Of a stretch of 64,000 nucleotides of DNA, positions 17,090 to 34,600 are shown one piece after another. Below the pieces are notes generated by a model. That model was not told the DNA's origin, made no database searches, and saw only the letters and a list, made by a program, of their open reading frames with translations. Origin of the DNA: Roseovarius lutimaris (GTDB taxonomy: Bacteria > Pseudomonadota > Alphaproteobacteria > Rhodobacterales > Rhodobacteraceae); NCBI RefSeq assembly GCF_900115165.1, contig NZ_FOVP01000014.1, forward strand, positions 62,001 to 126,000. The letters run 5' to 3'. The stretch's first letter is position 1; every line of letters starts with the position of its first letter. The position numbers were made by a program, and so were the translations under genes.

Positions 17090-17109
17090 TCCGGGGGAAA
17101 TCCCCCGGA
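17090..17109 (-). terminator. Hairpin between TRAP dctP and the dehydrogenase genes
   Basis: TCCGGGGG-AAAT-CCCCCGGA, a perfect 8-bp stem with a tetraloop, 31 bases after the dctP stop and 28 bases before the next start. No T-run follows, suggesting an mRNA stabiliser or attenuator after the binding-protein cistron. Confidence 0.6.
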
Positions 17110-17139
17110 TAGCTCTGTTTTACTGTCGTGACAGCGGCC

Positions 17140-18129
17140 TTACTTGCCGATTTGATCAAGAATGCCCTGGCCCCATTCAACGCCGACATCCTCAAGCACA
17201 ACCGGCCAGACATCGGCACGTACCTTGGCGGCCATGGCGGCAAGCTGTTCATCGGACAGTTCGACCACAGTGGTGCCAAGATCATCGGCAAGGCGCTGTT
17301 CGTTCTTGCCCTGATCGGCCTCGGCCACGGTCCAGCGGGTCGCCTCGAACGCTTCGGCCTCGGCCTTGAGCGCGGCCTGATCCTCGGCGTCAAGCTCGGC
17401 CAGGCTTTCGTTCGAGATGATCATATACCAGACCTCGAAATGGGTATTGGCGGGGATATAGGTTTTGGTCACATCACGGAACGAGGCGTAATAGCCCTCG
17501 GCACCCGACCCGATAACGCCATCGACAACGCCGGTCTGAATGGCGGTGAAGGCCTCGGAGAACGGGATTGGCGACGGGATATAGCCAAGCGCCTCACCGG
17601 TCAGCTGGAACGACTTGATGCCGGGCACGCGTACCTTGATGCCGTTGGGCGAGGGATCGCCGGGATGCACCGCGTCGGTGTTGAGGGCAATACCGCCGAA
17701 ATAAACCGGATAGGCCGCCAGCATGGTGATGTCCTGCTTGGCATAAAGCTCGCCCATGACGTTGCGCACAACGCCGCCGGGGCCGTAAATCTCACGCGCC
17801 TGCGCCCAGTTGGCGGCCAGAAACGGAAAAGAACTGATCTGCATCTTGCGATCAGCCGCCGTTGCGGCGGGCTGGGTGGCCATGTCGATGGCGCCGACGC
17901 TGATGCGTTCCTGCACCGAGGTATAATCGCCAAGCGCAGAGGCCGGGAACAGGCTGATCTTGACGTCACCGCCGGTGGCCGCAGCGACCTTATCGGCAAA
18001 TGCGCGCAACTCGACGTCGATGGTGGTGTCCTGCGGGCGCACGTGGCTCATCTTAAGGTCGGCCGCCGAGGCGATGCTGCCAAGGGCCAGAAGGGCGGCG
18101 GTCGCCGTGCCAAGCATAAAGTGTTTCAT
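17140..18129 (-). CDS. TRAP transporter substrate-binding protein (DctP family)
   Basis: A 329-residue periplasmic receptor with a Sec signal peptide (about residues 1-22, ending ASA-A). The mature protein starts DLKMSHVRPQDTT. Typical DctP features include FPFLAANWAQAREIY near 99-113, VRVPGIKSFQLTGEALG near 165-181 (including the conserved Arg that holds a substrate carboxylate) and FTAIQTGVVDGVIG near 192-205. It follows dctQ and dctM in the same direction and precedes the three-subunit dehydrogenase, so the ligand is probably a carboxylated amine or amino-acid derivative (inference). Confidence 0.9.
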   Translation of the reverse strand: MKHFMLGTATAALLALGSIASAADLKMSHVRPQDTTIDVELRAFADKVAAATGGDVKISLFPASALGDYTSVQERISVGAIDMATQPAATAADRKMQISSFPFLAANWAQAREIYGPGGVVRNVMGELYAKQDITMLAAYPVYFGGIALNTDAVHPGDPSPNGIKVRVPGIKSFQLTGEALGYIPSPIPFSEAFTAIQTGVVDGVIGSGAEGYYASFRDVTKTYIPANTHFEVWYMIISNESLAELDAEDQAALKAEAEAFEATRWTVAEADQGKNEQRLADDLGTTVVELSDEQLAAMAAKVRADVWPVVLEDVGVEWGQGILDQIGK

Positions 18130-18168
18130 TTCAGTATCTCCTTGTTGGGTGTTCAGGGTTTTTTGTGA

Positions 18169-19473
18169 TTACGGGGCATAGCCAAACAGTCGCGGCAGGT
18201 AGAGCGACAGGTCCGGCCAAAGCGACGTGAGAAAGACGACCGGCACATAGCCCGTCACGATCAAGAGCATGGCAGGCGGGATCACCTTGGTCACCTTGAC
18301 CTTGCCGATCCGCGCCCCGAGATAAAGGATCGAGGCATAGGGCGGCGTGACCCCACCCATGGCGGTATTGACGCCCATGATCGCGGCGAACTGTACCGGG
18401 CTGACGCCAATCGCATTCATCAGCGGCAACAAAAGCGGCGCGATCAGGATGATGGCGGTGACGTCATTGACCACCATGCCGACCAGAAACAGCAGGATGT
18501 TGATCAGGATCAGCAGCAAAACCTTGTCGTCGGTCAGCGAGAAGATCGAACTTACAAGCGCCTGCGGGATCGCCTCCATCACGAAAATCTGGCTCAGGAT
18601 CATCGAGAACAGGATCATCAGCATGATTGCGCCCACGGCGGTCGCGGCCTCCTGGCCTGCACTCAGGAAATTCTCCCACCTCAGACCCTTGTAGATCAAA
18701 AAGCCAACCGGCACCGCATAGATCACCGACACGGCGGCAGCCTCGGTCGGGGTCATGATGCCGCCATAGATGCCGCCAAGAATGATCACTGGCATCAAAA
18801 GCGCCGGAAAGGCGTGAAAGCCGCGTTGCGCCACCTGGGTGCTCAGCTCGGAAAAGCTCGGCTTGTCGTCCAGGATAAGGTTGAACTTGCGGCTCATCCA
18901 GAGATTCACGACCGAGAAATTGAACATGATCAAAAGGCCCGGCCCAAGCGTCGCCAGAAAACAGGCCAGGATCGAAGTATCGGTGACCCAGCCATAGACG
19001 ATCATCGTCACCGATGGCGGGATCAACAGGCCAAGGATCGACGAATTGGCGATCAGCGCAGTGGCATATTCACGCGGATAGCCGCGCTTTTCCATCTCGG
19101 GAATGAGCAGCGGACCAATCGCCGCGATCCCGGTCAGACCAGAGCCGGAAATCGCACCGATCACCGCGCAAGACACTGCCGCCACCACGCCAAGCCCGCC
19201 GCGAACATGACCGATAAAGGCGCTCACGAAGCGCAGCAAAGAGGCGGCGATGCCGCTTTCCGACATGATCGTACCGGCAAGAACAAACAGAGGGATGGCA
19301 AGCAGGACCGGGTTGCTAAGCTGCTGAAACCCCCAGAGCATATTGCCCTTCATGGTCACGTCGCCGATGAAATACATCGCCATCAACGCGCCGCCAAAAC
19401 AATAGGGCAGCGGCACGCCAAGCGTCAGGAACAGCACCAGAACGGCGATGGCCAGAAGAGCAACTTCGATCAT
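18169..19473 (-). CDS. TRAP transporter large permease (DctM family)
   Basis: A 434-residue membrane protein with about 12 helices, the ion-coupled translocation subunit of the TRAP importer. Family motifs include GLTGIAAIGPLLIPEMEKRGYPREYATALIANSSILGLLIPPS in the first half and MPTEAAAVSV-like IMTPTEAAAVSVIYAVPVG in the second. The start at 19473 overlaps the dctQ stop in an ATGA arrangement; an upstream in-frame extension runs antisense-free through dctQ and is not used. Confidence 0.9.
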   Translation of the reverse strand: MIEVALLAIAVLVLFLTLGVPLPYCFGGALMAMYFIGDVTMKGNMLWGFQQLSNPVLLAIPLFVLAGTIMSESGIAASLLRFVSAFIGHVRGGLGVVAAVSCAVIGAISGSGLTGIAAIGPLLIPEMEKRGYPREYATALIANSSILGLLIPPSVTMIVYGWVTDTSILACFLATLGPGLLIMFNFSVVNLWMSRKFNLILDDKPSFSELSTQVAQRGFHAFPALLMPVIILGGIYGGIMTPTEAAAVSVIYAVPVGFLIYKGLRWENFLSAGQEAATAVGAIMLMILFSMILSQIFVMEAIPQALVSSIFSLTDDKVLLLILINILLFLVGMVVNDVTAIILIAPLLLPLMNAIGVSPVQFAAIMGVNTAMGGVTPPYASILYLGARIGKVKVTKVIPPAMLLIVTGYVPVVFLTSLWPDLSLYLPRLFGYAP

Positions 19474-19940
19474 TGGGCCGATCCTTTGGTCAATGCGCGG
19501 ATATGGGTCAGAAGGTGCCAGGCGGTATAGACCATCATCAGCGCCAACCCGACAAACAGCGCCACGTCGGAATAAAACGTCGGAATATAAAGCGTCGGGC
19601 TTTCGCGCCAGACCCGCCAGGCATAGCGCGTGTAATCCCAGGCCCAGCTTAGCAACCAAAGCCCGACAACAAGGCTTATGATCTCGCCGACAATCGCCAG
19701 AATGGTATGGCCGCGAGCCGTCTTGACGAATATTTCCAGAACATTGGCGCGGATATGGGTGTTTTCACGCGAGGCATTGACCGCGCCCAGAATATAAAGC
19801 CAAAGCGTCGGATAAAGCATGGTTTCCTCAAGCCCCATCACCGGAATTTGCAGCACATAGCGCGTGATCACCTGCACGAACTGGCCAAGGGCCACCACGC
19901 AGATCAATGCGGTCAGCAGATATTTCGAAAACCTGTCCAT
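19470..19940 (-). CDS. TRAP transporter small permease (DctQ family)
   Basis: A 156-residue protein with four membrane helices, including the family segment FVQVITRYVLQIPVMGLEETMLYPTLW. The start at 19940 is supported by a GGGGGA run a few bases upstream; the ATG nine codons earlier lacks a ribosome-binding site. First gene of the TRAP-dehydrogenase operon, divergent from a LysR gene 110 bases away. Confidence 0.86.
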   Translation of the reverse strand: MDRFSKYLLTALICVVALGQFVQVITRYVLQIPVMGLEETMLYPTLWLYILGAVNASRENTHIRANVLEIFVKTARGHTILAIVGEIISLVVGLWLLSWAWDYTRYAWRVWRESPTLYIPTFYSDVALFVGLALMMVYTAWHLLTHIRALTKGSAQ

Positions 19941-20050
19941 AATTCCCCCGACGACTCGACCGGTCATTCAGCAATAGCTTGACGCCCGGCGGCATATAAA
20001 ATCAAATTGGAAAAAACGTTCAATCCATAGATTAGGCTTATACCCCTGCC

Positions 20051-21004
20051 ATGAACCTCACTTTTCGCCAGCTTCATACCTTCCGCGAGGTGATCCGTTC
20101 GGGGTCAATCAGCGGCGCGGCGCGCACACTGGGGCGCACGCAACCCGCCGTCAGTTCCATGATCGCCGGGCTAGAGGATGAGTTGGGCTTTGCCCTATTC
20201 TTGCGCGAGCATGGCAAGCTTACCCCGACGCCCGAGGCGCAGTTTTTCCTTGAGGAATGCGAGGATATTCTCGACCGGCTGGATCAGACCAAACGCACCC
20301 TCGGCGGCATCGGCAATCTGTCGGCCGGGCGATTGCGGATTGCCTGTCATCCGGCGGCGTCGGGTTTTTTCATGCCGATGGTCCTGACCGATTTCCTGCG
20401 TTACAAGCCGGGGATCGAAGTATCGCTGATGATGCGCTCGTCGACCGTGATCGAAGATCTGATCGCCTCGCAGCAATTCGATGTGGGCTTTGCCGAGGCG
20501 CCGATGCCGCGCGCCTCGATCAGGCAACAGGATTTCGATATGGAATGCGTCTGTGCCCTGCCTGCGGGCGATCCATTGGCGGCGCGCGATTGCGTAACCG
20601 CGCGCGATCTTGATGGCGCCGCGCTCGCCACGTTGTTTGCCGAGCACACCACCTATGCCCAGACCTGTCGCGCCTTCGAGGCGGCCGATTGCACCTTTCA
20701 ACGGCGCTTTGAGTTGCAGACATTTCTACCCGGGCTTCGCTTTGTCGAGGCCGGGTTATGCGCCATGATCTGCGATATGATCACCGCCCACACCCATCTT
20801 CAAAGCAACAGCGCGGGCACGATCCGGTTTCGCCGCTTTGCGCCAAAAATCACCAGCAAAGTGTCGATCCTGACGCCCGCGCACAGCCCGCAATCGGTGA
20901 TCGCGGCGGCGTTTTGTGCGCATCTGGCAGGCCATGTCAGCGCGCTTCAGGCGGATATGCAGGCCGGTCTGGCCGCTATTTCTGAAACAGACGGGTCGCG
21001 TTGA
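20051..21004 (+). CDS. LysR-family transcriptional regulator
   Basis: A 317-residue LTTR with an N-terminal helix-turn-helix (LTFRQLHTFREVIRSGSISGAARTLGRTQPAVSSMI, about residues 2-37) and a periplasmic-binding-like effector domain from about 90. It is divergent from the dctQ-M-P-dehydrogenase operon and is the likely regulator of it. Its 3' end overlaps the convergent rpiR gene by 29 bases. Effector unknown, presumably the substrate of the TRAP system. Confidence 0.9.
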   Translation: MNLTFRQLHTFREVIRSGSISGAARTLGRTQPAVSSMIAGLEDELGFALFLREHGKLTPTPEAQFFLEECEDILDRLDQTKRTLGGIGNLSAGRLRIACHPAASGFFMPMVLTDFLRYKPGIEVSLMMRSSTVIEDLIASQQFDVGFAEAPMPRASIRQQDFDMECVCALPAGDPLAARDCVTARDLDGAALATLFAEHTTYAQTCRAFEAADCTFQRRFELQTFLPGLRFVEAGLCAMICDMITAHTHLQSNSAGTIRFRRFAPKITSKVSILTPAHSPQSVIAAAFCAHLAGHVSALQADMQAGLAAISETDGSR

Positions 21005-21854
21005 ACAGCTCGTCAAGTCGCTCGTAACGCTCACGCGTGGCGGGCCAGCGTTCTTCCTGTGCGGCGGCGATCAACGCCTCAAGCAACATCATCGTCGAAA
21101 CATTCGAATCCCACGCCGAGGGGATTTCGACCCAGCAATTGAAGGTATGGCGTGCCAGATCGGCAATCGGGCTGACCCATTGATCGGTGATCAGGATAAC
21201 CCGCACACCGCGCGCCGTCGCAAGCTCGGCCAGCCGCAAGAGGTTGGTTTCATAGCGCCGGATATCGAACATCAAAAGCGTGTCGCCCTCGGCCATATCG
21301 AGCACATAGTGCGGCCATGTCGCCGATGAGGCCGTCATATGCGTAACCCGCTCGCGCACCGCCTGAAAATGGGTAAATGCATAATCGGCAAGCGCCCGCG
21401 TGATGCGCCCGCCCACCACGTAAAGCCGCCCCGATGTATCGGCGAGATCGCGCGCCGCCCGATCAAAGCGGTCGCTGTCGATATTGGCAAAGGTCTGTTC
21501 GATGTTCTGGGTCACCGCCTGGGCAAACCGGTTGAGGTGATGCGTGGCCGGCGCCTCGCTTGCCCAATTGGCGCGGCGTTGGGTGGGCCCCGAAACCTTG
21601 GCCTCAAGCTCTTTCAGCAAGGCCTGATGAAATTGCGGATAGCCCTTGAAGCCCAGCTTTTGCACCATCCGCGCCACGGTCGGGGTCGAAACACCTGCAT
21701 TCGCCGCCACGATAGTGATCGAGGCCAGCCCCGCCGCCGGATAGCTGTCAAGCAAGGCCTGCGCAAATTTACGCTCGGATTGGGTGAGCGCGCTGTAATG
21801 ATCACGGATCAGTTCGCGCACCGTTGCTGTGGGCTGGGCCGGTGTCGTGGTCAC
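20976..21854 (-). CDS. RpiR/MurR-family transcriptional regulator
   Basis: A 292-residue regulator with an N-terminal RpiR helix-turn-helix (ALTQSERKFAQALLDSYPAAGLASITIVAANAGVSTPTVARMVQKLGFKGYPQFHQAL, about residues 20-78 in pieces) and a C-terminal SIS domain (RLYVVGGRITRALADY and later DTLLMFDIRRYETNLLRLAELATARGVRVILITD). SIS domains usually bind phosphosugars, but RpiR proteins also control amine catabolism. I chose the GTG at 21854, which has AGGA eight bases upstream, over a start 34 codons earlier that would run through the putative operators. Divergent from the gamma-glutamylation operon, which it likely controls. Confidence 0.86.
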   Translation of the reverse strand: MTTTPAQPTATVRELIRDHYSALTQSERKFAQALLDSYPAAGLASITIVAANAGVSTPTVARMVQKLGFKGYPQFHQALLKELEAKVSGPTQRRANWASEAPATHHLNRFAQAVTQNIEQTFANIDSDRFDRAARDLADTSGRLYVVGGRITRALADYAFTHFQAVRERVTHMTASSATWPHYVLDMAEGDTLLMFDIRRYETNLLRLAELATARGVRVILITDQWVSPIADLARHTFNCWVEIPSAWDSNVSTMMLLEALIAAAQEERWPATRERYERLDELFNATRLFQK

Positions 21855-21939
21855 ATCACAAATCCTGTTTTGGATGCCGTCCTTTGAGGCAGGTTGTTCA
21901 TCATAGCGCGGCGCGGCAAGACAATCACCGCAGCGAGGC

Positions 21940-21989
21940 TGAAAACATATTGACATAAATATTGCCTCGTGAAAACATCTTTACAAATG
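21940..21989. promoter_or_regulatory. Tandem operator-like repeats between rpiR and the amidohydrolase operon
   Basis: Two similar direct repeats start exactly 30 bp apart, at 21940 and 21970: each begins TGAAAACAT and continues with a TTxACA-AAT-like part. A 30-bp spacing is close to three helical turns, so two regulator dimers would sit on one face. The first repeat also holds a TTGACA hexamer (21950-21955) that could be a -35 element for the rightward operon. The likely ligand is the adjacent RpiR protein (inference). Confidence 0.55.
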
Positions 21990-22003
21990 CCAGTGGGGAC
22001 AAA

Positions 22004-22795
22004 ATGCAAGCCAATCCGGAAAGGGATGATTCTGACGCTGTTGAGGTATTGAACCCACAAGGTCGCGGTGCGGCCCTGATCCTGTGCGAACATGCCTCAA
22101 ACCATATTCCCGCGCGTTATCATGGCCTTGGCCTAAAAGAGAGTGACCGGACAAGCCATGCGGCCTGGGATCCGGGCGCGCGCGATGTGGCGCTTGGCCT
22201 GATGCGCGCGCTTGATGCGCCGCTGATCGCCTCGACCGTGTCGCGGCTGGTCTACGACTGTAACCGCCCGCCCGAGGCGCCAAGCGCGATGCCCGAGCGA
22301 TCCGAAGTGATCGAGGTGCCCGGCAATCGCGATCTGAGCGAGGCCGCCCGACGTGAGCGTGTGGACGCCGTCTATACCCCGTTTTGTAATGCCGTCAGCG
22401 CCCTGACCGCCACGCGCAAGGCGGCCGGTCTTGTTACGCATCTGATCACCATCCACAGCTTTACGCCGCTTTATTACGGCAAGCCGCGTGATTGCGAGAT
22501 CGGGATCTTGCACGACAGCGATAGCCGTCTGGCCGATGCGATGCTGAGCGAGGCACACAGATTGCCCACCCGCGTGATCCGGCGCAACGATCCTTATGGG
22601 CCAGAGGATGGTGTGACCCATTCGCTCAAGCTGCACGGAATTGCGCAGGGCCTGGCGAATGTGATGATCGAAATCCGCAACGAACTTTTGGTTGGCGCAG
22701 AGGCGCAACACGCAATGATCGACGAGCTTTTGACGCTCTTGCGCCCGGCGATGGCAACGCTTGATCAGCAAGCCCCCGGAGGGACGCATGCCTAG
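22004..22795 (+). CDS. N-formylglutamate amidohydrolase-family protein
   Basis: A 263-residue member of the FGase family (zinc carboxypeptidase-like amidohydrolases). The metal-site motif ILCEHASNHIP lies near residues 26-36; LVYDCNRPPEAPSAMP near 81-96 and HLITIHSFTPLYYG near 143-156 supply further family residues. The start at 22004 follows a GGGG run. No histidine-utilisation genes are present, so N-formylglutamate is unlikely to be the substrate here. In this operon, next to a glutamine-synthetase-like ligase, it may hydrolyse a gamma-glutamyl amide to glutamate plus acid (inference). Confidence 0.8.
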   Translation: MQANPERDDSDAVEVLNPQGRGAALILCEHASNHIPARYHGLGLKESDRTSHAAWDPGARDVALGLMRALDAPLIASTVSRLVYDCNRPPEAPSAMPERSEVIEVPGNRDLSEAARRERVDAVYTPFCNAVSALTATRKAAGLVTHLITIHSFTPLYYGKPRDCEIGILHDSDSRLADAMLSEAHRLPTRVIRRNDPYGPEDGVTHSLKLHGIAQGLANVMIEIRNELLVGAEAQHAMIDELLTLLRPAMATLDQQAPGGTHA

Positions 22796-23384
22796 ATTTA
22801 TCCTGTCCTATATCCGCTCGATTGACGCGATGAACCGCTTTATCGGGCGCTTTGCGATGTACCTCATCTTTGCGCTGATCGGGGTGTTGCTCTGGTCGTC
22901 GTTTTCCAAGGCGTTTTTCACGCCGTCGCACTGGACGCTTGAAACCGCACAATTCGTGATGGTCGCCTATTACGTGCTTGGCGGCCCCTATTCGATTCAG
23001 CTAGGATCGAACGTGCGGATGGATTTGTTCTATGGCGGCTGGTCGGTCCGGCAACGGGCTTGGTTTGACGCCTTTACCGTGTTGTTTCTGCTGTTTTATC
23101 TCGGCATGCTTTTATACGGCGCGATTAGCTCGACCGCCTATTCCCTTGGCTATTTTGGCACCGAACCCTTTGCCTTTTTCTGGGATCTTTTCGTGACCTT
23201 TGTCACCCAAGGCCCAAGCGCCGCCACCGAGAAAATCGGCTTTATGGAGCGCAGCCCGACCGCCTGGCGCCCATATATCTGGCCGGTCAAGACCATCCTG
23301 TGCATCGGGGTTTTCCTGATGCTGCTGCAATCCCTAGCCGAATTTTTCCGCGACATCGGCCGTATCCGTGAAGAGGCGCTCTGA
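22788..23384 (+). CDS. TRAP transporter small permease (DctQ family)
   Basis: A 198-residue membrane protein, longer than usual because of an extended loop (about residues 125-165) before the last helix. The DctQ core WTLETAQFVMVAYYVLGGPYSIQLGSNVRMDLFY spans about residues 45-78. The start at 22788 has GGAGGG seven bases upstream and overlaps the previous gene by eight bases. Its one-base overlap with dctM shows coupled translation. This long form is typical of the mannitol/chloroaromatic-type TRAP subfamily. Confidence 0.87.
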   Translation: MPRFILSYIRSIDAMNRFIGRFAMYLIFALIGVLLWSSFSKAFFTPSHWTLETAQFVMVAYYVLGGPYSIQLGSNVRMDLFYGGWSVRQRAWFDAFTVLFLLFYLGMLLYGAISSTAYSLGYFGTEPFAFFWDLFVTFVTQGPSAATEKIGFMERSPTAWRPYIWPVKTILCIGVFLMLLQSLAEFFRDIGRIREEAL

Positions 23385-24706
23385 TGTCCTATGAAATGAT
23401 CGCCATTTTGATGTTCAGCTCGATGATGCTGATGCTTCTGACCGGCCAGCGGGTATTTGGCGCCATCGGCTTTGTCGGGGCCTTTGCCGGGCTGATGCTC
23501 TGGGGGACGGGCGGGGCGGATATGCCGTTTTCCGCCGCTATGAAGCTGATGAAATGGTATCCGCTTCTGACGCTGCCGATGTTCATTTTCATGGGCTATG
23601 TGCTGTCGGAAAGCAAAATCGCTGATGACCTTTACAAGATGTTTCACGTCTGGATGGGCCCGGTGCGCGGCGGTCTGGCCATCGGCACCATCGGGTTGAT
23701 GGTGCTTATTTCAGCGATGAACGGCCTGTCGGTGGCGGGCATGGCGATTGGCGCGACCATTGCCCTGCCCGAGCTTTTGAAACGCGGCTATGACAAGATC
23801 ATGGTGACCGGCGTAATTCAGGCGGGATCAAGCCTCGGCATCCTTGTGCCACCCTCGGTGGTGCTGGTGCTTTACGCGATGATCGCACGCCAACCGGTTG
23901 GGCAACTCTGGCTCGCGGGTGTCATTCCGGGGCTGATGATGGCGACGATGTTCATCATCTATATCTATGTACGCTGCCGGATACAGCCAGAGCTTGGCCC
24001 GGTCCTGCCGCCCGAAGAACGCGACGTGCCCTTGGCCGAAAAGCTGCGCCTGCTGCGCGCCGGGCTTTTGCCGCTCGTGATTTTCGCGGTGATGATGGTG
24101 CCCTTTGTCAAAGGCTATACCTCGCTTGTCGAAAGCTCGGCGATTGGCGCGATGGCGGCCTTTGTCGCGGCGGTGATCAAGGGGCGGATGACCCGCGAGG
24201 TTTTCGAGACCTCGGTGCGCTCGACCCTGGCGATTTCCTGCATGTTCATGTGGATTATTCTTGCCGCCTTGGGCTTTGGCGCGATTTTTGACGGGCTTGG
24301 CGCGGTCAAGGCGATTGATCATCTCTTTACCGAACAACTCGGGTTTGGCCCCTGGACGATCCTGATCCTGATGCAGCTTAGCTTTATCCTGATGGGCACC
24401 TTTCTCGATGACACTGCAATGCTTGTCATCGTGGCGCCGCTTTACGTGCCGCTGGTCGGTTCGATGGGGTTCGATCTGGTGTGGTATGGTGTACTCTATA
24501 CGATCACCTGTCAGATTGCTTATATGACGCCGCCGTTTGGCTATAACCTGTTTTTGATGCGCGCGATGGCCCCGCCCGAGATTTCGATCCGGGATATCTA
24601 TCGCTCGATCATACCCTTTGTGCTTGTGATGACCTTTGCGCTGGCGATGGTGATCATCTTCCCGCAGATCGCGCTCTGGCTGCCGAATTACGTGTACGGG
24701 AAATAA
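23384..24706 (+). CDS. TRAP transporter large permease (DctM family)
   Basis: A 440-residue membrane protein with about 12 helices. Recognisable parts include LPMFIFMGYVLSESKIADDLY near residues 63-83, NGLSVAGMAIGATIALPELLKRGYDKIMVTGVIQAGSSLGILVPPSV through 110-157, and MGTFLDDTAMLVIVAPLYVPL near 335-356. It starts on the last base of dctQ and precedes the binding-protein gene by 52 bases, completing a full TRAP system in the order Q-M-P. Confidence 0.9.
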   Translation: MSYEMIAILMFSSMMLMLLTGQRVFGAIGFVGAFAGLMLWGTGGADMPFSAAMKLMKWYPLLTLPMFIFMGYVLSESKIADDLYKMFHVWMGPVRGGLAIGTIGLMVLISAMNGLSVAGMAIGATIALPELLKRGYDKIMVTGVIQAGSSLGILVPPSVVLVLYAMIARQPVGQLWLAGVIPGLMMATMFIIYIYVRCRIQPELGPVLPPEERDVPLAEKLRLLRAGLLPLVIFAVMMVPFVKGYTSLVESSAIGAMAAFVAAVIKGRMTREVFETSVRSTLAISCMFMWIILAALGFGAIFDGLGAVKAIDHLFTEQLGFGPWTILILMQLSFILMGTFLDDTAMLVIVAPLYVPLVGSMGFDLVWYGVLYTITCQIAYMTPPFGYNLFLMRAMAPPEISIRDIYRSIIPFVLVMTFALAMVIIFPQIALWLPNYVYGK

Positions 24707-24758
24707 CCCCAAGAACTCCGCCAACGGAGCATGAAGATAACCAACCAAGGAGAGATCA

Positions 24759-25799
24759 ATGACCACCACCAGACGTTCATTCCTTCGCGCCGCGACACTG
24801 GGCGGCGCCGCAACATTGGCCAGCCCGGCCATTGTCCACGCCCAGGCCCCGATCAAATGGCGCTTTCAAACCTATGCCGGTGCGGCCTTGGGTGAGTTTG
24901 TGACCAAACCGGCCATCGACTTCATCAACAACGCCGCCAATGGCGAGATGGAGATCGAGCTTTATTATGCCGATCAGATCGTGCCCACCGGTGAGCTTTT
25001 CCAGGCGCTTCAGCGCGGCACCATCGACGGGGTCCACTCAGACGACGATTCAATGGCGTCCCCGACGCCGCTTCAGGTCTTTGGCGGCTACTTCCCGCTG
25101 GCCACCAAGCACGCACTTGATGTGCCGGTGCTGTTTGACCAATACGGGCTGGCCGATATCTGGCGCTCGGAATACGAGAAAGTCGGCGTGACATGGCTCT
25201 CGGCTGCGGGGCAAGACCCCTGTAACTTCAACACCAAGAAAGAGATCACATCGCTGGCCGATCTTGATGGGCTCAAGCTTTACACCTTCCCCACTGCGGG
25301 GCGGTTCCTGTCGCAATTCGGCGTGGTGCCGGTGTCGATCCCCTATGAGGATGCCGAAGTCGCGGTGCAAACCGGCGAGCTTGACGGCATGGCATGGTCG
25401 GGCATCACAGAGGATTATACCGTCGGCTGGGCCAATGTGACCGACTATTTCCTGACCAACAACATCTCGGGCGCCTGGATCGGGTCGTTCTATGTGAACC
25501 AGAAAATGTGGGCCGACTTGCCAGAGCATCTCAAGGCCGTTGTCATGGCCGGGATCGAGGCCAGCCACACCTATCGCAACCAGTGGTACTGGGGCGGTGA
25601 GGCGCGCCTGCGCTCGACTGGGGATCAGCTCAAGCTGCGCTCGATCCCGCAGGAAGAATGGAAGACCGTCGAAGAGGCAGCCGTCACGTTCTGGGATGAA
25701 ATCGCCCAAGAAGGCGAAGTCCACGCGAAAATCGTCAAGATCTTCCGCGACTATAACGACGTTACAAGCAAGGCTGGCCCGCCCTATACCTTCGGCTAA
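24759..25799 (+). CDS. TRAP transporter substrate-binding protein (DctP), Tat-exported
   Basis: A 346-residue periplasmic receptor. The N-terminus has a twin-arginine signal (TTRRSFLRAATLGG, cleavage near A-H-A-Q at about residue 29), so it is exported folded. The core contains GLKLYTFPTAGRFLSQFGVVPVSIPYEDAEVAVQTGELDGMAWSG (about residues 169-213, in pieces), the usual TRAP ligand region but with a Tyr-Thr-Phe stretch where many carboxylate receptors carry Arg. That loss of the carboxylate-binding Arg would be in line with a non-acid ligand such as an amine or amino alcohol (inference). AAGGAGAG precedes the start. Confidence 0.88.
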   Translation: MTTTRRSFLRAATLGGAATLASPAIVHAQAPIKWRFQTYAGAALGEFVTKPAIDFINNAANGEMEIELYYADQIVPTGELFQALQRGTIDGVHSDDDSMASPTPLQVFGGYFPLATKHALDVPVLFDQYGLADIWRSEYEKVGVTWLSAAGQDPCNFNTKKEITSLADLDGLKLYTFPTAGRFLSQFGVVPVSIPYEDAEVAVQTGELDGMAWSGITEDYTVGWANVTDYFLTNNISGAWIGSFYVNQKMWADLPEHLKAVVMAGIEASHTYRNQWYWGGEARLRSTGDQLKLRSIPQEEWKTVEEAAVTFWDEIAQEGEVHAKIVKIFRDYNDVTSKAGPPYTFG

Positions 25800-25806
25800 G
25801 CCCCTT

Positions 25807-25832
25807 GCCCCGGCGCGGTGCCGTGCCGGGGC
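25807..25832 (+). terminator. Intercistronic hairpin between dctP and the GS-like gene
   Basis: Perfect 8-bp stem GCCCCGGC / GCCGGGGC with a 10-base loop, eight bases after the dctP stop. It lacks a clear T-run, so it likely reduces read-through or protects the upstream mRNA rather than ending all transcription. Confidence 0.6.
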
Positions 25833-25872
25833 GCACCAATTGTTATGCCTTCAATCACACAGGAAATTCCCC

Positions 25873-27234
25873 ATGTCAGGCCCGCTGAGTTTCGAGACCC
25901 TAAAAACCCAAGTTGCCGCCGGCGAAGTGGATACCGTTCTGGCCTGCCTTGTCGATATGCAGGGCCGCCTGATGGGCAAGCGGTTTCACGCGGGCCATTT
26001 CATTGCCAGCGCCTGGGAAGAAACCCATTGCTGCAACTACCTGTTGGCCACCGATCTTGAGATGACCACCCCCGAGGGCTTTGCCTCGACCAGCTGGGAA
26101 AAGGGTTATGGCGATTACGTGATGAAGCCGGATCTGAGCACCCTGCGCCCGATGCCCTGGCTTGAGGGCACGGTTCTGGTGCTTTGCGATGTGCTTGATC
26201 ACCACACCCAAGAGGACGTGCCGCATTCGCCGCGCGCCATGCTCAAGACACAGCTCAAGCGGCTTGAGGCGCTTGGCTTTGACGCGATGATGGCGACCGA
26301 GCTGGAGTTTTTCCTCTTCGAGCAAAGCTTTGATGAGTTGCGCAAATCGGGCTATCGCGATCTGGTGCCGATCTCGGGTTATAACGAGGATTACAACATC
26401 TTCCAGACCACCAAGGAAGAACACGTGATGCGCCCGGTGCGCAATCATCTCTGGAACGCGGGCCTGCCGATCGAGAATTCCAAGGGCGAGGCCGAGGCCG
26501 GTCAGGAAGAGCTTAACATCAAATACGCGCCCGCCCTCGATACCGCCGATTATCACACCATCGCCAAGCACGCGATCAAGGAAATCGCCTGGCAGCAAGG
26601 GCACGCGGCAAGTTTTCTGCCAAAATGGGATCACAGCCGCGTCGGTTCGTCCAGCCACGTGCATCAGTCTTTGTGGAAAGACGGAAAACCGGCGTTTCAT
26701 GACCCGAACGACAGCCTTGGCATGAGCCAACTGATGAAGCATTACATGGCCGGATTGCTGAAATACGCGCCCGATTACACCTATTTTCTTGCGCCCTATA
26801 TCAACAGCTACAAGCGCTTTCAAAAGGGCACATTCGCGCCGACACGCACGATCTGGTCAGTGGACAATCGCACCGCCGGTTTCCGCCTCTGCGGTGAAGG
26901 CAGCAAGGCGGTGCGCGTCGAGTGCCGGGTTGGTGGGTCTGACCTGAACCCCTACCTCGCGATGGCGGCGCAATTGGCGGCCGGCATCAAGGGCATCGAG
27001 GATGCGCTTGACCTGGCCCCGCCCACGGTGGGCGACGCCTATGCGGGCGATACCGGGCTGATCCCGCAAACGCTGCGCGACGCCTATGTGACGCTCAAAG
27101 GGTCTGACATGCTGCGCGCGGCCTTTGGCGACGATGTGATCGACCACTACGCCCGTGCCGCCGAAGTCGAGATCGAGGATTTTGACCGCGTTGTGACCGA
27201 TTACGAGGTGGCGCGCGGGTTTGAACGGGCGTAA
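25873..27234 (+). CDS. Glutamine synthetase-like gamma-glutamyl-amine ligase (PuuA/GlnT family)
   Basis: A 453-residue GS-fold ligase expected to join glutamate to an amine at the expense of ATP. Catalytic stretches are MMATELEFFLFEQ near residues 137-149, SSHVHQSLW near 259-267, and NRTAGFRLCGEGSKAVRVECRVGGSDLNPYLA near 333-364 in pieces. The start at 25873 has AGGA eight bases upstream; the long upstream in-frame extension crosses the dctP gene and is not real. True GlnA normally sits with glnB, absent here. With the ALDH and Fe-ADH downstream it probably makes gamma-glutamyl-amino-alcohol (inference). Confidence 0.85.
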   Translation: MSGPLSFETLKTQVAAGEVDTVLACLVDMQGRLMGKRFHAGHFIASAWEETHCCNYLLATDLEMTTPEGFASTSWEKGYGDYVMKPDLSTLRPMPWLEGTVLVLCDVLDHHTQEDVPHSPRAMLKTQLKRLEALGFDAMMATELEFFLFEQSFDELRKSGYRDLVPISGYNEDYNIFQTTKEEHVMRPVRNHLWNAGLPIENSKGEAEAGQEELNIKYAPALDTADYHTIAKHAIKEIAWQQGHAASFLPKWDHSRVGSSSHVHQSLWKDGKPAFHDPNDSLGMSQLMKHYMAGLLKYAPDYTYFLAPYINSYKRFQKGTFAPTRTIWSVDNRTAGFRLCGEGSKAVRVECRVGGSDLNPYLAMAAQLAAGIKGIEDALDLAPPTVGDAYAGDTGLIPQTLRDAYVTLKGSDMLRAAFGDDVIDHYARAAEVEIEDFDRVVTDYEVARGFERA

Positions 27235-27313
27235 CAGCCACGCCGTTGGACTTGAGTATTTTTGCCAAGAAGAAACAGGGCGAGTGCGCTTGCCCGTGAC
27301 CAAGGATGCAATC

Positions 27314-28693
27314 ATGCAGACATTGAAATGTATCTCACCCATCGACGGATCGGTCTTTGCCACCCGCGAGGTTTTGAGTGTTGAGGCGGCGCAGGAAGTC
27401 GCCACGCGCGCCCGCGCGGCACAGGTCGCATGGGCCGCGCGCCCCTTGCAGGAGCGGATAGATCTGGTGATGGCAGGCGTCGCCGCCGTTGGCGAGATGA
27501 ACGACGAGATCGTGCCGGAACTGGCGCATATGATGGGGCGGCCGATCCGCTATGGCGGCGAATTTGGCGGCTTCAACGAGCGCGCCAGCCATATGGCCGC
27601 CATTGCCAGGGACGCGCTGGCCGATATCGCCGTGGGCGAGGATGAGACGTTTTTGCGTTATATCAAACGCGTCCCGCATGGCGTGGTGTTTGTCGTAGCG
27701 CCGTGGAATTACCCCTATATGACCGCGATCAATACCGTGGCGCCGGCGCTTATTGCCGGGAATACGATGATCCTCAAGCACGCCACGCAAACGCTGTTGG
27801 CGGGCGAGCGGATGGCACGCGCCTTTCACGCCGCAGGGGTGCCAGAGGATGTCTTTCAGAACGTGTTTCTGGATCACGACACCACATCCACCCTGATCGC
27901 CGCCCGCGCCTTTGATTTCGTCAATTTCACCGGCTCGGTTGGTGGCGGGCGCGCGATGGAGCGTGCGGCGGCAGGCACCTTTACCGGTCTTGGGCTGGAG
28001 CTGGGTGGCAAGGATCCCGGCTATGTCATGCAGGACGCCGATCTTGACGCCGCTGTCGACACGCTGATTGACGGGGCGATGTTCAATTCGGGGCAATGCT
28101 GTTGCGGGATCGAGCGGATTTATGTCCACGAGAGTCTTTATGACGCCTTTGTCGAAAAGGCCGTGGCGATTGTGAAGGGCTATACCCTTGGCAACCCTCT
28201 GGACGCAGAAACCACAATCGGCCCGATGGCCAATGTGCGCTTTGCAACCGAGGTGCGCGGGCAGATCGCCGAGGCGCTGAAAATGGGGGCTGTGGCGCAT
28301 ATCCCGGCGATGCCGGGCGATGATGGCGCCGCCTATCTCACGCCGCAGATTTTGACCGATGTGAACCACGACATGCGCGTCATGCGCGACGAAAGCTTTG
28401 GCCCGGTTGTGGGGATCATGCCGGTCAAAGACGACACCGAGGCCATTGCCCTGATGAACGATAGCGAATTCGGCCTGACCGCCAGCCTCTGGACCGCCGA
28501 TGTTGCGCGCGCACAGAGGGTGGGTGATCAGATCGAGACCGGCACCATTTTTCTCAATCGCGCCGATTACCTTGATCCGGGCCTGTGCTGGACGGGTTGC
28601 AAGAATACCGGTCGCGGCGGTGGCCTGTCGGTGATCGGCTATCACAATCTGACACGTCCCAAATCCTACCATCTCAAGAAGGTGACACAATGA
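27314..28693 (+). CDS. NAD(P)-dependent aldehyde dehydrogenase
   Basis: A 459-residue ALDH. Substrate-independent marks: VVAPWNYPYMTAINTVAPALIAGNTMILKHA near residues 112-142, FTGSVGGGRAM near 201-211, the general base in LELGGKDPGYV near 225-235, and the nucleophile in FNSGQCCCGIERIY near 258-271. The start at 27314 has AAGGA seven bases upstream. Translational coupling to the next gene by an ATGA overlap shows joint function: the alcohol dehydrogenase would supply the aldehyde and this enzyme would oxidise it to the acid. Confidence 0.9.
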   Translation: MQTLKCISPIDGSVFATREVLSVEAAQEVATRARAAQVAWAARPLQERIDLVMAGVAAVGEMNDEIVPELAHMMGRPIRYGGEFGGFNERASHMAAIARDALADIAVGEDETFLRYIKRVPHGVVFVVAPWNYPYMTAINTVAPALIAGNTMILKHATQTLLAGERMARAFHAAGVPEDVFQNVFLDHDTTSTLIAARAFDFVNFTGSVGGGRAMERAAAGTFTGLGLELGGKDPGYVMQDADLDAAVDTLIDGAMFNSGQCCCGIERIYVHESLYDAFVEKAVAIVKGYTLGNPLDAETTIGPMANVRFATEVRGQIAEALKMGAVAHIPAMPGDDGAAYLTPQILTDVNHDMRVMRDESFGPVVGIMPVKDDTEAIALMNDSEFGLTASLWTADVARAQRVGDQIETGTIFLNRADYLDPGLCWTGCKNTGRGGGLSVIGYHNLTRPKSYHLKKVTQ

Positions 28694-29835
28694 GCCTGAC
28701 AGGAAACTGGTCCTATCCGACCACAATGAAATTCGGCGCTGGCCGGATCAAGGAACTGCCCGCTGCCTGTGCGCAGGCTGGGATCAAACGCCCGCTGCTG
28801 GTGACAGACAAAGGCTTGGCCAACCTGCCCGTCACCCAGGCCACGCTTGACATCATGGAGGCCGCCGACCTTGGCCGCGCGATATTTTCCGAGGTCGATC
28901 CAAACCCGAACGAGATCAACCTTGCCGCCGGTGTCGCCGCCTATAAGGCGGGCGACCATGACGGGGTAATCGCCTTTGGCGGCGGTTCGGGGCTCGATCT
29001 GGGCAAGATGGTCGCTTTCATGGCCGGACAAACCCGGCCGGTCTGGGATTACGAGGATGTCGGCGATTGGTGGACCCGCGCCAACAGCGATGCCATCGCG
29101 CCAATCATCGCCGTGCCCACCACTGCGGGCACCGGATCAGAGGTCGGGCGCGCATCGGTGATCACCAATTCCGTGACCCATGTGAAAAAGATCATCTTTC
29201 ACCCCAAGGTCCTGCCCGCCGTGGTGATCTGCGATCCCGAACTAACCGTCGGCATGCCGAAATTCATCACCGCCGGCACCGGGCTTGACGCCTTCGCCCA
29301 TTGCGTCGAGGCATTTTCAAGCCCGCATTACCACCCGATGAGCCAAGGCATTGCGCTTGAGGGCATGCGCCTTGTCATCAACTACCTGCCGCGCGCCTAT
29401 AGTGATGGTACCGATATCGAGGCCCGCGCCCAAATGATGAGCGCCGCCGCCATGGGCGCCACCGCGTTTCAGAAAGGCCTTGGCGCGATCCACGCCATGA
29501 GCCACCCCATCGGCGCCGTCTTCAACACCCACCACGGCACCACCAATGCGGTCTGCATGCCTGCGGTGCTTGACCTCAACGCCGATGTAATCGCCGAACG
29601 GTTTGACCGCGCGACGGGTTATCTTGGCATTTCCGGCGGCTTCGATGGCTTTCGCAGCTTCGTGCAGGAATTCAACGACAGCCTTGGCATCCCGCGCCAC
29701 CTCTCTGATCTTGGCGTCACCGCCGAAGCGATCCCCGATCTGGTGGCCGGCGCAATTACCGACCCAAGCTGTGGCGGCAACCCTGTCACCTTGACCGAAG
29801 AGAACCTGACCGCTCTCTTCCACGCCGCCCTGTAA
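28690..29835 (+). CDS. Iron-containing alcohol dehydrogenase
   Basis: A 381-residue group III (Fe-ADH) dehydrogenase. The NAD-binding GGGSGLDLGKM is near residues 97-107, and PTTAGTGSEVGRASVI near 138-153 is a family hallmark. Metal ligands are in GLDAFAHCVEAF (Asp and His, about residues 198-209) and AIHAMSHPIGAVFNTHHG (two further His, about 262-279). Overlaps the ALDH stop by four bases. As the last gene of the operon it probably oxidises the alcohol group of the glutamylated amino alcohol (inference). Confidence 0.9.
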   Translation: MSLTGNWSYPTTMKFGAGRIKELPAACAQAGIKRPLLVTDKGLANLPVTQATLDIMEAADLGRAIFSEVDPNPNEINLAAGVAAYKAGDHDGVIAFGGGSGLDLGKMVAFMAGQTRPVWDYEDVGDWWTRANSDAIAPIIAVPTTAGTGSEVGRASVITNSVTHVKKIIFHPKVLPAVVICDPELTVGMPKFITAGTGLDAFAHCVEAFSSPHYHPMSQGIALEGMRLVINYLPRAYSDGTDIEARAQMMSAAAMGATAFQKGLGAIHAMSHPIGAVFNTHHGTTNAVCMPAVLDLNADVIAERFDRATGYLGISGGFDGFRSFVQEFNDSLGIPRHLSDLGVTAEAIPDLVAGAITDPSCGGNPVTLTEENLTALFHAAL

Positions 29836-30234: not shown

Positions 30235-30507
30235 TCAGTTCTGCAGATTGAAATCAAAGAGTGTCGAGTGCCGATCTCGGGCAAGTGTTTTAACCTCGGC
30301 CTTGTTCAGCGACTTAAGTATTTCCTCTTGCGTCAGGCCCTTGGAGCGCAATGTCGACCACAAGCGTCGCGCCGATGCAGGCGACCAGGGTAAGGCGGCG
30401 ACTGATAGCCACTGTCTCAGCGGGGCGGGCAAGCCATCATAGGCCGACATGGGATCACCAGACCGACGTTTGTGACGCAGACTGCTTTGTCCAAGATTTC
30501 CGCTCAT
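30235..30507 (-). CDS. Small conserved protein, DUF6525-like, in zinc locus
   Basis: A 90-residue basic protein with an N-terminal [19 protein letters not shown] segment and a central LPAPLRQWLSVAALPWSP motif (about residues 26-43), followed by a helical part ending in KSLNKAEVKTLARDRHSTLF. I recall this layout from the DUF6525 family of Rhodobacteraceae but cannot confirm it. It overlaps the DUF1826 gene by four bases (ATGA), so it is co-translated with the COG0523 operon. No metal-binding motif is evident; function unknown. Confidence 0.7.
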   Translation of the reverse strand: MSGNLGQSSLRHKRRSGDPMSAYDGLPAPLRQWLSVAALPWSPASARRLWSTLRSKGLTQEEILKSLNKAEVKTLARDRHSTLFDFNLQN

Positions 30508-31139
30508 ATTTCATCTTCCGGATCAGTCACGGGATCGAGCACGAGGACCAGCCGGGTTTCGCCCGTGCCTTCGATGGGCGGTGAGCGATGCAGCAAACCG
30601 GAGGACGGCTCAGCGGGCCAAAGCGTTCCGCGCAACAGGATGGGTGAGCCAGTCTGAACCGTGAAGAAGCGTTGCGGGTCAGCCCCGTCGGACGATATCC
30701 CGTATTGCGTTCCGGTGCCCCGATAGGTGCACACAAGCCGCGCGGTAATGGCGTCGACGTGGAACTTGCGGCAGGCATTGGTGGTTACCACGTCCAACCG
30801 AAGCCGCAAGAACCTTGCCTTCATCAGGTCCGAAAACATGTCGGCCAACCCGACAATGTCCTGCTGAAGCCAGTCACGTTCTGACCCGTCAGGCAGATTG
30901 GCCATATCAAAGAGGTGCTGCACGGCCTCACCAACGGCGTGCAGCGGGAGGATAACCCGCGCCCGTGGTAAACCTTCGCTGTCAATGCCATCCAACCAGA
31001 CTTCCACGTCAGGGGGCATTTTCCGACGCCAGATTGCAGCGGCACATCCGGGCTGCACGAAAGTGCCCAGGTCAGCTGGATCATCTGCCATGCCAACCCC
31101 GATAGCCGCATCCTTGACGGTTCTTCTGACCAAATTCAT
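30504..31139 (-). CDS. DUF1826 domain protein
   Basis: A 211-residue soluble protein. Family-like parts are [21 protein letters not shown] early on, then [17 protein letters not shown] (about residues 113-129), [11 protein letters not shown] and [20 protein letters not shown] near the C-terminus. The spread of conserved His, Cys and Arg and its fold pattern recall a cupin or 2-oxoglutarate-dependent-like protein, but this is not certain. DUF1826 genes are commonly beside COG0523 GTPases in Zur regulons, which is the case here, with ATGA overlaps on both sides. The start at 31139 overlaps the GTPase stop. Confidence 0.78.
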
Positions 31140-32356
31140 GCAGCGTCCTCGACATGGCGCCAACCTGGGAACGGATCGGGCAGGTCTAGCGGCAAGGCGT
31201 CCGGTCCGGCCGCCAGGACAGCGGGCACCACGCAGGTATCCAGTTTTGCCTTGAGAACCGCCCAGTCAATGCCCGCGCCGATAAAGACCAGTTCCTGCCG
31301 CCGGTCGCCCCAAGGCTCCGCCCAGTGTTGTTTGATGTAATCGGATGCCGTGACATGTTCGGGCCACCGTTCCCGGGGTACGTTCGCCCACCAGGTCCCG
31401 ATAGGTTTGACGCTCGACAACGATCCCGCAAGCGAAAATTCCGCCACCCATTCGGGTCGGGTTGCGATCCAGAAATGCCCCTTGGCCCTGATAACGCTGG
31501 GCATGTCTCCGTTCAGTACGGCGAGGATTTTCTCGGGGATAAACGGGGCCTTGGCGCGATACACATAGGAGGCCACGCCGTATTCCTCGGTCTCGGGCAC
31601 GTGGTCGGCAAAGCCGTAGAGTTCCTTTGCCCACATCGGGTGCTCATGGGCCTGATCGAAATCAAAGAGGCCTGTGTCGAGGATCTTTTCGGCCGCGACG
31701 CGCGACTGGTTGGTCTCGATGACCTGTGCATCCGCATTTAGGCTTCTGATAATCTTGCGCGCTGCGTCGACCTTATCGGGGCCTGCATCATCGACTTTGT
31801 TCAGGATCACGACATCGGCAAATTCGATCTGGTCAGTCAGCAGATGCACAAGGGTGCGTTCGTCTTCCTCGCCCATCGTTTCGCCGCGGTCGCGCAGGAA
31901 ATCGTGGCTGGCGTAATCGTTCAGAAGGTTCACGGCATCCACCACCGTGACCATCGTATCGAGACGGGCCACATCCGACAGGCTGTCGCCGAATTCATCG
32001 CGGAAATCGAAGGTGGCGGCGACGGGCAGCGGCTCGGAGATCCCGGTGGATTCGATCAACAGATAGTCAAACCGCCCCTCGCCAGCCAGCTTGCGCACCT
32101 CATCAAGCAGGTCATCGCGCAGGGTGCAGCAGATGCAGCCGTTCGACATCTCCACCAGTGTTTCGTCCCTGCGACTTAGTTCGGTGTCAGCGCGGACCAG
32201 ATCCGCATCGATGTTCACCTCAGACATGTCGTTGACGATCACTGCGACCCGCCGTCCGTCCCTGTTGTTGAGAACGCGATTGAGAAGCGTGGTCTTGCCA
32301 GCCCCAAGGAAGCCGGACAGGACAGTTACGGGAAGGCGGGAGTCTGTATCTTTCAT
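31136..32356 (-). CDS. COG0523 (CobW/ZigA-type) GTP-binding metal chaperone
   Basis: A 406-residue G3E-family GTPase. Walker [10 protein letters not shown] is at about residues 15-23, the metal-binding CxCC motif is in [11 protein letters not shown] near 72-82, and ILNKVD is the guanine-specificity loop near 183. A C-terminal CobW_C domain follows from about 265 ([14 protein letters not shown]). Long members with this form (ZigA/YeiR class) are made under zinc starvation and deliver Zn to client enzymes. The start at 32356 has GAGG five bases upstream. It heads the short unit with DUF1826 and DUF6525-like genes, downstream of a second GTPase. Confidence 0.88.
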
Positions 32357-32561
32357 GGGGACCTCATTCATCAATGGTTTTGGGTAGGTGGGAACATCGA
32401 ATTCGGTTCGCAGAACCCGCATTTCTCTAAGTCCCTATGCGCAATCATGACTGCGCCCCCAGCGACTTGACCAGCCTGGCTCGGGCCAAATGGGCACTGG
32501 TACTGGGCGGGAGCAGCCAGAGCATTGGGCGGATCATGGAGTTGAATGCACGCTGCATGAG

Positions 32562-33683
32562 TCAGAATGGCATCTCTGTGGTGTGCACAAGACTACCGTC
32601 GGCGCGCGTTTCTTGCGGTCGCATCCGCAACGTCTCCAGACTGCCCCTCAGGTGGCTTTTGTCGATATCGCGCGCAATGACCACGACGCGGCTTGTCGTG
32701 TCTTTGCCAGACCAGGATTTCAGCGGCACAGGGGCGTCGAAAATATGTTGTACACCGTGAAACACGAAGGGCCAGTCGATGCCCTCTACGTGAACGATAC
32801 CCTTTATTCTCAATATATCCGGACCCTTGAGTGCGATCAGCGTATCAAGCCAGAAGTCAAAGACGTCAGCCGGGATTGGCTCGGCCACTTCGATGGAGGC
32901 AGAGCCGATGCGGCTGTCGTGATGCGCATGGGCTCCAAGGCTGGCCATGGGTTGAGCCGCAGGCGTTTTGGGGGCCAGGCCTGAAAGGCCCGCCAATGGG
33001 TCAGGCTTGGAACTGGACACACCAAGCCAATCCGAAAGCTCATCTGATGTCACGCCCTCGCGCATGGCCGTAAGGTTGAAAAGGCTACCAGGGGCGATCC
33101 GCCCCTGATCACCAAGCACGACCCGCGCCGTGCTATTGATACCGTGCAGTCGGTCCGTGAGGCGATCAAGCTGCGAGGTTGAGACAAGATCGGTTTTTGT
33201 GATGACCAGCAAATCAGCCATGGCCACTTGGTTCACCGCCTCGAATTGCGCATCAAGCGTGCGCGGGCCGTTTGCGGCATCGGCCAGCGTCACGATCCCG
33301 TCCATCCGGTAATGGGGCGCGATCAGGTCATCGACGATCAGGGTATGATGGATCGGCCCCGGATCCGCGATCCCGGTGGTCTCGATCACGACACGATCAA
33401 ACGCCAACTCCCCGCGCTTGCGACGCGCCATGAGCGATGCCATCGTTTTCGCCAGATCGCCGCGGATCGAGCAGCACAGGCAACCCGACTGCATGAGCAC
33501 GGTTTCCTCGGTCGCCTCCTCGATCAGGTCATGATCAAGACCGACATCCCCGAATTCGTTCATCACAACGGCAATGCGCCCCGCGTCCGGATCGCGGATC
33601 AAATGGTTCAAGAGAGTCGTCTTGCCAGCACCTAAAAAACCGGTCAGCAAGGTAACAGGCACCCTGTCATCTTCGCGCTCCAT
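32562..33683 (-). CDS. Second COG0523 (CobW-like) GTP-binding protein
   Basis: A 373-residue G3E GTPase, clearly distinct from the next gene. Walker [10 protein letters not shown] lies near residues 15-23, the CxCC motif is SGCLCCSIRGD near 66-76, and VITKTD is the specificity loop. A His-rich insertion GAHAHHD near residue 268 precedes the CobW_C domain (RIKGIVHVEGIDWPFVFHGVQHIFD). The start at 33683 has GGGGA upstream. It is divergent from hisI, sharing a putative Zur box, and is followed by the ZigA-type gene after 205 bases. Two COG0523 paralogues in one locus suggests different client enzymes, one of which may be HisI (inference). Confidence 0.87.
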   Translation of the reverse strand: MEREDDRVPVTLLTGFLGAGKTTLLNHLIRDPDAGRIAVVMNEFGDVGLDHDLIEEATEETVLMQSGCLCCSIRGDLAKTMASLMARRKRGELAFDRVVIETTGIADPGPIHHTLIVDDLIAPHYRMDGIVTLADAANGPRTLDAQFEAVNQVAMADLLVITKTDLVSTSQLDRLTDRLHGINSTARVVLGDQGRIAPGSLFNLTAMREGVTSDELSDWLGVSSSKPDPLAGLSGLAPKTPAAQPMASLGAHAHHDSRIGSASIEVAEPIPADVFDFWLDTLIALKGPDILRIKGIVHVEGIDWPFVFHGVQHIFDAPVPLKSWSGKDTTSRVVVIARDIDKSHLRGSLETLRMRPQETRADGSLVHTTEMPF

Positions 33684-33730
33684 AAAGACGTCCCCTCTGT
33701 TCGATCTTGATCCGATCAGCAATTTATGTT

Positions 33731-33752
33731 TGTTACGTTATATCATAATATT
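33731..33752. promoter_or_regulatory. Putative Zur box, cobW/hisI divergent promoter
   Basis: AT-rich 22-bp site with core GTTACGTTATATCATAAT in the 87-bp space between the divergent COG0523 and hisI genes. Its core GTnACGTTATATnAT recurs, on the opposite strand, in the znuA-zur space (35676-35697). GTTAT...ATAAT-type dyads are typical of alphaproteobacterial Zur sites. Binding is inferred. Confidence 0.6.
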
Positions 33753-33770
33753 CCGCAAGAGGATCAAATC

Positions 33771-34244
33771 ATGTCGAGCATCTCTTTTCACCCGCGCCAA
33801 TCGCTCGAACAGGTCGAAGAGGGATGCATGCTTGCACCGAAATTCGGTGTGGACGGGCTCGTTCCCTGCGTCACCACCGATGCAACCAGCCACGAGGTTC
33901 TGATGCTGGGCTGGATGAACGCCGAAGCGCTGCGCCGAACGCTGGAAACCGGCGAAGCGCATTACTTCAGCCGCTCACGACAAGTGATGTGGCGCAAGGG
34001 AGCCACCTCGGGTCTTGTCCAAAATGTGGTAGAGGCGCGGATCGACGATGACCAGGACGCGATCTGGCTTCGGGTCGAGATTGGGGGCGCGGGTGCGTCC
34101 TGCCATGTCGGCTATCGGTCATGTTTCTACAGAGCGATCCCAACCGTAGAAAACGCGGGAGACCCGTTGATGTTCACGGAAAGCGCGAAAACGTTTGATC
34201 CAGTCGCCGTCTATGGCGATGCGCCCAATCCAACGCTACTGTGA
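33771..34244 (+). CDS. hisI: HisI-type phosphoribosyl-AMP cyclohydrolase paralogue
   Basis: A 157-residue HisI-family protein. Visible family residues are [28 protein letters not shown] near residues 43-70, [24 protein letters not shown] near 79-103 with the Mg-binding Asp cluster (D-D-D-Q-D), and Cys pairs in [15 protein letters not shown] near 108-122. HisI is a zinc enzyme of histidine biosynthesis (PR-AMP to ProFAR). No other his genes are nearby; placement in a Zur-type locus matches known zinc-starvation HisI paralogues linked to COG0523 proteins. The start at 33771 has AGAGGA upstream. Confidence 0.85.
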
Positions 34245-34501
34245 GCCTCGCTGCGGGTATGCGCGACAGGGCAGCGATGCTGTGGCACGTCCAGCGCGTC
34301 AAACGCATGGTTCGCGAACGGATGCCCCTTGGAAACCATGCGCTTGTTTCAGTTGCCGAGGTTCCCTGTGATGACCCCGCTTGTCCGGGTCCAGCGACCC
34401 AGATCACGATCCTTGGTCTCGATATGGTCCGGCGCGGGTTTGTGATCCATGTGCCGGTCGCGGCGATCACCGAGGCCGATCTTGCCGCGATCAGCGCCTA
34501 G
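34241..34501 (+). CDS. Small Cys-motif protein of the zinc locus, unknown function
   Basis: An 86-residue protein translationally coupled to hisI (GTG at 34241 overlaps the hisI stop; an ATG at 34259 is the alternative). It contains [21 protein letters not shown] near residues 37-57 with a C-x5-C pair, and two short beta-rich stretches ([21 protein letters not shown]). The Cys motif could bind a metal. I do not recognise a named family. The tight coupling to a zinc-enzyme paralogue suggests a zinc-linked role such as a metal carrier or a HisI partner (inference). Confidence 0.68.
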
Positions 34502-34600
34502 GGCCGCCAATCGCGGCTTGGCCCGGCCAGGCCTCACAACACAGAACAAATGGCCGTCCGCGTGCCACAAAAGAAACTCGGCGGCACGCGGTCAAAGCGT

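Follow-up and report, generated by a model that had tools for sequence, protein, structure and literature searches.

The gene set around a TRAP importer in Roseovarius lutimaris reads, with a probability that we put at about 93% from its sequence and from analogy with published operons, as the Eto ethanolamine operon, by which ethanolamine would be imported, gamma-glutamylated and oxidized to gamma-glutamylglycine, with glycine being released at the end. The window, that is the whole stretch of DNA analysed, is 64,000 nt long (assembly GCF_900115165.1, contig NZ_FOVP01000014.1, positions 62,001-126,000), and all coordinates given here are window-based. The evidence drawn from the sequence consists of homology, gene order, residues of the receptor pocket and the loss of an ammonium-site motif from the ligase. 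The operon is real and was correctly read in the first-pass annotation; it is also already known. The accompanying statement that no described operon has exactly these parts was mistaken, because the eight-part set was published in 2023 for Phaeobacter sp. MED193 (Westermann et al. 2023, PMC10132767); as a gene set it therefore brings nothing new.

Gene order and proposed pathway

All eight reading frames are open and, by ORF calls and Pfam, follow each other in the order RpiR, FGase, DctQ, DctM, DctP, GS-like, ALDH and Fe-ADH. The RpiR/MurR-type regulator (20976..21956, minus strand; Pfam HTH_6 and SIS) is divergent from the operon proper, which lies on the plus strand. It starts with an FGase-family hydrolase (22004..22795; ATG start; PF05013, 136 bits), predicted to be a gamma-glutamylglycine amidohydrolase (GGAH), and continues with the TRAP small permease DctQ (EtoV, 22788..23384; PF04290), the TRAP large permease DctM (EtoW, 23384..24706; PF06808) and the TRAP receptor DctP (EtoX, 24759..25799), a predicted ethanolamine binder with a Tat-like signal. 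These are followed by a GS-like ligase (25873..27234; Gln-synt_C, 317 bits), predicted to be the ethanolamine gamma-glutamylase (ETAGA), by the aldehyde dehydrogenase ALDH (27314..28693; PF00171 Aldedh, 378 bits; putative GAADDH) and by the iron-containing alcohol dehydrogenase Fe-ADH (28690..29835; PF00465/PF25137; putative GETADH). With starts refined from the sequence, the FGase and DctQ genes overlap by 8 bases, DctQ and DctM meet at TGATG, and ALDH and Fe-ADH share an ATGA overlap. The gene list, families, order, divergent RpiR, Tat receptor and ATGA overlap that had been reported at first pass are thus borne out.

In the proposed pathway, EtoVWX would import ethanolamine, and the GS-like ligase would use ATP to join it to glutamate, forming gamma-glutamylethanolamide. 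We infer that Fe-ADH and then ALDH would oxidize the alcohol end to an aldehyde and on to gamma-glutamylglycine, from which the FGase-family hydrolase, if this is its substrate, would release glycine and regenerate glutamate. RpiR would control the operon, presumably in response to a ligand. A gene for glycine decarboxylase is present in the same genome.

Two neighbouring regions of the window were also noted. Directly adjoining the operon, at 15965-21004, the genes of a further TRAP system and of an FAD-dependent oxidoreductase stand divergent to that of a LysR regulator. The region 30504-36240 holds a zinc-starvation-like cluster with DUF1826, two CobW-type GTPases, phosphoribosyl-AMP cyclohydrolase and ZnuA, as well as a FUR-family match narrowly under its cut-off (22.8 of 23.1 bits), which is perhaps Zur.

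Conservation of the eight-gene set

A receptor scan gave 575 confirmed relatives, the best 80 of which, all named and at least 78% identical, were taken as the set of related loci; within these best 80 of 575, the nearest named receptor matches are from Roseovarius. By best tblastn hit, all eight genes stand together in the same order and on the same strands in 62 of the 80 loci, and a chance arrangement is therefore rejected. The neighbourhood comparison thus shows the co-conservation for which the first-pass annotation had proposed to look. The regulator gene is found at 73 of the 80 loci. Among the remaining 18 loci, 11 are truncated, their contig ending on the side of the absent genes, while seven that are uncut there (L027, L030, L065, L074, L078, L082 and L083) are without one or more of the genes among the matches listed. 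The FGase gene is absent near the TRAP-GS-ALDH-ADH core in L027, L030, L083 and L065, the last of which offers only about 1.5 kb of upstream sequence. Because these four uncut loci have no neighbouring FGase, this enzyme may be replaceable.

Seventeen plasmid records carry a receptor relative. Three of the five examined, from Paracoccus denitrificans PD1222, Ruegeria sp. B32 and Rhodobacteraceae bacterium SC52, hold all eight genes, with a receptor identity of 62-83%; on the plasmids of Tistrella mobilis and Rhizobium sp. ACO-34A, the receptor (about 56% identity) lies in a different setting.

The receptor and its ligand

The best solved match of EtoX is 4uab/4xf5, which scores 478 bits across 318 residues; the second-best reaches 68 bits. 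Since 4xf5 has the same sequence as 4uab and presumably holds 2-amino-1-propanol, the receptor pocket may be permissive, and the same chemistry could have another small amino alcohol (2-amino-1-propanol, isopropanolamine) as its main substrate, with gamma-glutamylalanine or a similar compound as end product. 4UAB itself is Csal_0678 of Chromohalobacter salexigens, in which platform Glu220 and aromatic side chains hold ethanolamine (PMC12410723, 2025), and which is described as being without the Arg that confers carboxylate selectivity on TRAP receptors (PMC4646407, 2015). Glu218 of EtoX aligns with the 4uab Glu of chain index 217, which equates with the published Glu220 on the assumption of a three-residue offset, and Tyr175 of EtoX aligns with a Phe of 4uab in what we infer to be the column of the carboxylate Arg. 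EtoX is thus near the ethanolamine-bound receptor, with the pocket Glu kept and the carboxylate Arg lost, granted this offset and column. Because the pocket Glu is kept and a Tyr stands at the presumed carboxylate-Arg position, the ligand to be expected from the sequence is an amine and not a carboxylate. Glu218 and Tyr175 are both invariant in an alignment of the 62 complete loci (62/62), the other 18 of the 80 loci being left out, and this constancy argues against a main substrate other than ethanolamine. So do the reports from Phaeobacter sp. MED193, where the protein levels of five operon members (GGAH, EtoX, ETAGA, GAADDH and GETADH) are higher on phosphoethanolamine, with EtoX being higher also without phosphate, and where EtoX binds ethanolamine (Kd 7.9 uM) but none of the four analogues named there (PMC10132767). 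We therefore regard another main amino alcohol as improbable and ethanolamine as the predicted substrate. A broader proposal, that the operon scavenges small 1,2-amino alcohols in general and that its FGase enzyme represents a separate class of gamma-glutamyl-amino-acid hydrolases besides PuuD and HutG, appears somewhat less remote, and is still rather unlikely.

Where EtoX-like receptors of about 56% identity occur in L095 (6045-9041) and L096 (8001-8951), the place of the ligase set is taken by two oxidoreductases and a kinase of FGGY or glycerol type. ITEDYTVGW is changed there to FTEAYEVGW while the pocket Glu is retained; a neutral polyol, for example glycerol, may be what this TRAP system imports.

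The GS-like ligase

The ligase is 75% identical to its best match 5dm3, presumably the product of the gene next to that for Csal_0678 in C. salexigens, and 57% identical to 11zs, as against 26-29% to the four other GS-family proteins of its own genome (26% to GlnA), which has five such proteins in total. Given its Pfam Gln-synt_C domain and its matches to the NCBIfam GlnA and GGputSyn (PuuA) models, the ligase could be a glutamine synthetase of the ordinary kind, which assimilates ammonia, or a polyamine ligase of PuuA type. Both models, however, match far under their cut-offs, with 237 of 429 bits for GlnA and 190 of 650 bits for GGputSyn, and the FDGSSIAGW stretch of the organism's own GlnA, presumably the holder of ammonium-site residues, is replaced in the ligase, from which the FDGSS motif is absent. 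The ligase is thus GS-like and, if the motif has this meaning, without the ammonium site of GlnA. Moreover, GlnA and a Puu-like cluster are encoded elsewhere in the genome, the cluster on contig C70 by a pair of GS-family genes, one of them flanked by a GATase and an FAD oxidoreductase (all named by eye). Type I glutamine synthetase GlnA was rejected on its model score and the absent FDGSS, and PuuA gamma-glutamylputrescine synthetase on the GGputSyn score; either activity is barely conceivable for this protein, and ethanolamine gamma-glutamylase remains the predicted function.

By eye, the genome has four GS-like proteins besides GlnA: the ligase and, in L002, L003 and L005 (C70 and C43), the Puu-like pair and a GmaS-like protein. 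The last of these is encoded beside a GltB-like gene. Among 100 genomes sampled from the family, one per genus, the ligase was found at 56% identity or more in 60, own genome included and four of the 60 matches being partial, and the other 40 gave more distant GS-family matches only.

The hydrolase and the dehydrogenases

2odf is the only solved match of the FGase-like protein. Its membership in PF05013, a family whose named activity is the hydrolysis of N-formylglutamate, would fit an N-formylglutamate deformylase of histidine breakdown that had come to lie here by accident. By contrast, one of the four PF05013 genes of the genome already lies among hutI, hutH and hutU on contig C64 (named by eye), whereas the copy in the operon overlaps with the TRAP genes, lies with TRAP and GS genes rather than in a hut operon, and is found with the TRAP genes at 74 of the 80 loci. 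No hut genes were seen among the ORFs listed around the PF05013 genes on C40 and C37. Because a separate family member sits among hut genes, histidine breakdown can probably do without the window FGase, and HutG was rejected for the same reason; an accidentally placed deformylase is thus very improbable, and gamma-glutamylglycine remains the predicted substrate.

For Fe-ADH, the nearest NCBIfam model is 4-hydroxybutyrate dehydrogenase, which stays under its cut-off (358 of 500 bits). Among the matches listed, which for ALDH were 25 of 44, no NCBIfam model reached its cut-off for the hydrolase, the ligase, ALDH or ADH, and public records still name the genes of the operon generically, for example in Paracoccus denitrificans. 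For these two reasons, the operon makes a case for improved annotation and not for discovery. Ethanolamine is a piece of membrane lipids, and the operon suggests that this bacterium is able to harvest carbon and nitrogen from the breakdown of phosphatidylethanolamine by a published route.

The regulator and the intergenic stretch

The RpiR ORF as called encodes 326 aa, and since the annotated homologues are shorter (279-291 aa), a later start, for example the GTG at 21854, is likelier. If this GTG is the start, the divergent gap between RpiR and FGase would be about 150 bases. A putative promoter/operator stretch at 21935..21990 (plus strand), between the regulator and hydrolase genes, has two copies of TGAAAACAT around TTGACA, a general promoter element, and parts of it are conserved upstream of related operons. 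Of 63 upstream regions, 15-19 contain its best 10-mers with no more than one mismatch, compared with at most 4 of 63 in a control that consists of one shuffle of the other sequences and ignores kinship among the regions. The stretch is thus a candidate RpiR operator.

Comparison with known systems

The Eut ammonia-lyase system has ethanolamine as a common substrate. EutB gave no match in the genome of R. lutimaris, while E. coli alone matched among 14 control genomes, and the Eut route was therefore rejected. In the Puu polyamine pathway, a GS-like ligase glutamylates the amine, and oxidation and hydrolysis follow. Unlike the operon in the window, Puu uses an FAD oxidase and a GATase hydrolase, as in the cluster on C70 (named by eye).

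The pathway of Streptomyces coelicolor GlnA4 resembles the window in ethanolamine gamma-glutamylation, for which the ligase activity has been shown, in two oxidations and in a proposed gamma-glutamylglycine hydrolase of the FGase family, SCO1615 (PMC6529630). A figure legend of the same paper gives orf5 of the cluster as a glutamine amidotransferase (PMC6529630). By contrast with the window, that cluster has a putative permease in place of TRAP, a short-chain dehydrogenase and another regulator. A review proposes the same chemistry, with the FGase-family gamma-glutamylglycine hydrolase included. The C. salexigens route is called an in silico prediction in the GlnA4 paper (PMC6529630); the MED193 paper calls the pathway demonstrated in C. 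salexigens and in A. tumefaciens C58, crediting Vetting et al. 2015 (PMC10132767). Chromohalobacter salexigens belongs to another class of bacteria; of the solved structures, that of its ethanolamine-bound receptor Csal_0678 (4UAB) matches EtoX best.

The closest counterpart is the Eto operon of MED193, where RpiR, GGAH, EtoV, EtoW, EtoX, ETAGA, GAADDH and GETADH are listed with rising locus tags (MED193_10021-10056) and where the hydrolase and both dehydrogenases were assigned via protein levels and homology; the receptor gene is reported there to be common in the ocean (PMC10132767). The route that the first-pass annotation had drawn, from ethanolamine over gamma-glutamylethanolamide and the aldehyde to gamma-glutamylglycine and then to glycine and glutamate, agrees with these assignments, with the S. 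coelicolor and C. salexigens proposals and with the receptor and ligase evidence, and is thereby supported, its enzyme steps being predictions here. Judged by locus tags and legend rather than by strands or identities, the window has the eight Eto parts in the order of MED193, the window FGase being by its place in the series the counterpart of MED193_10026, and the steps assigned to these parts are alike in the two operons.
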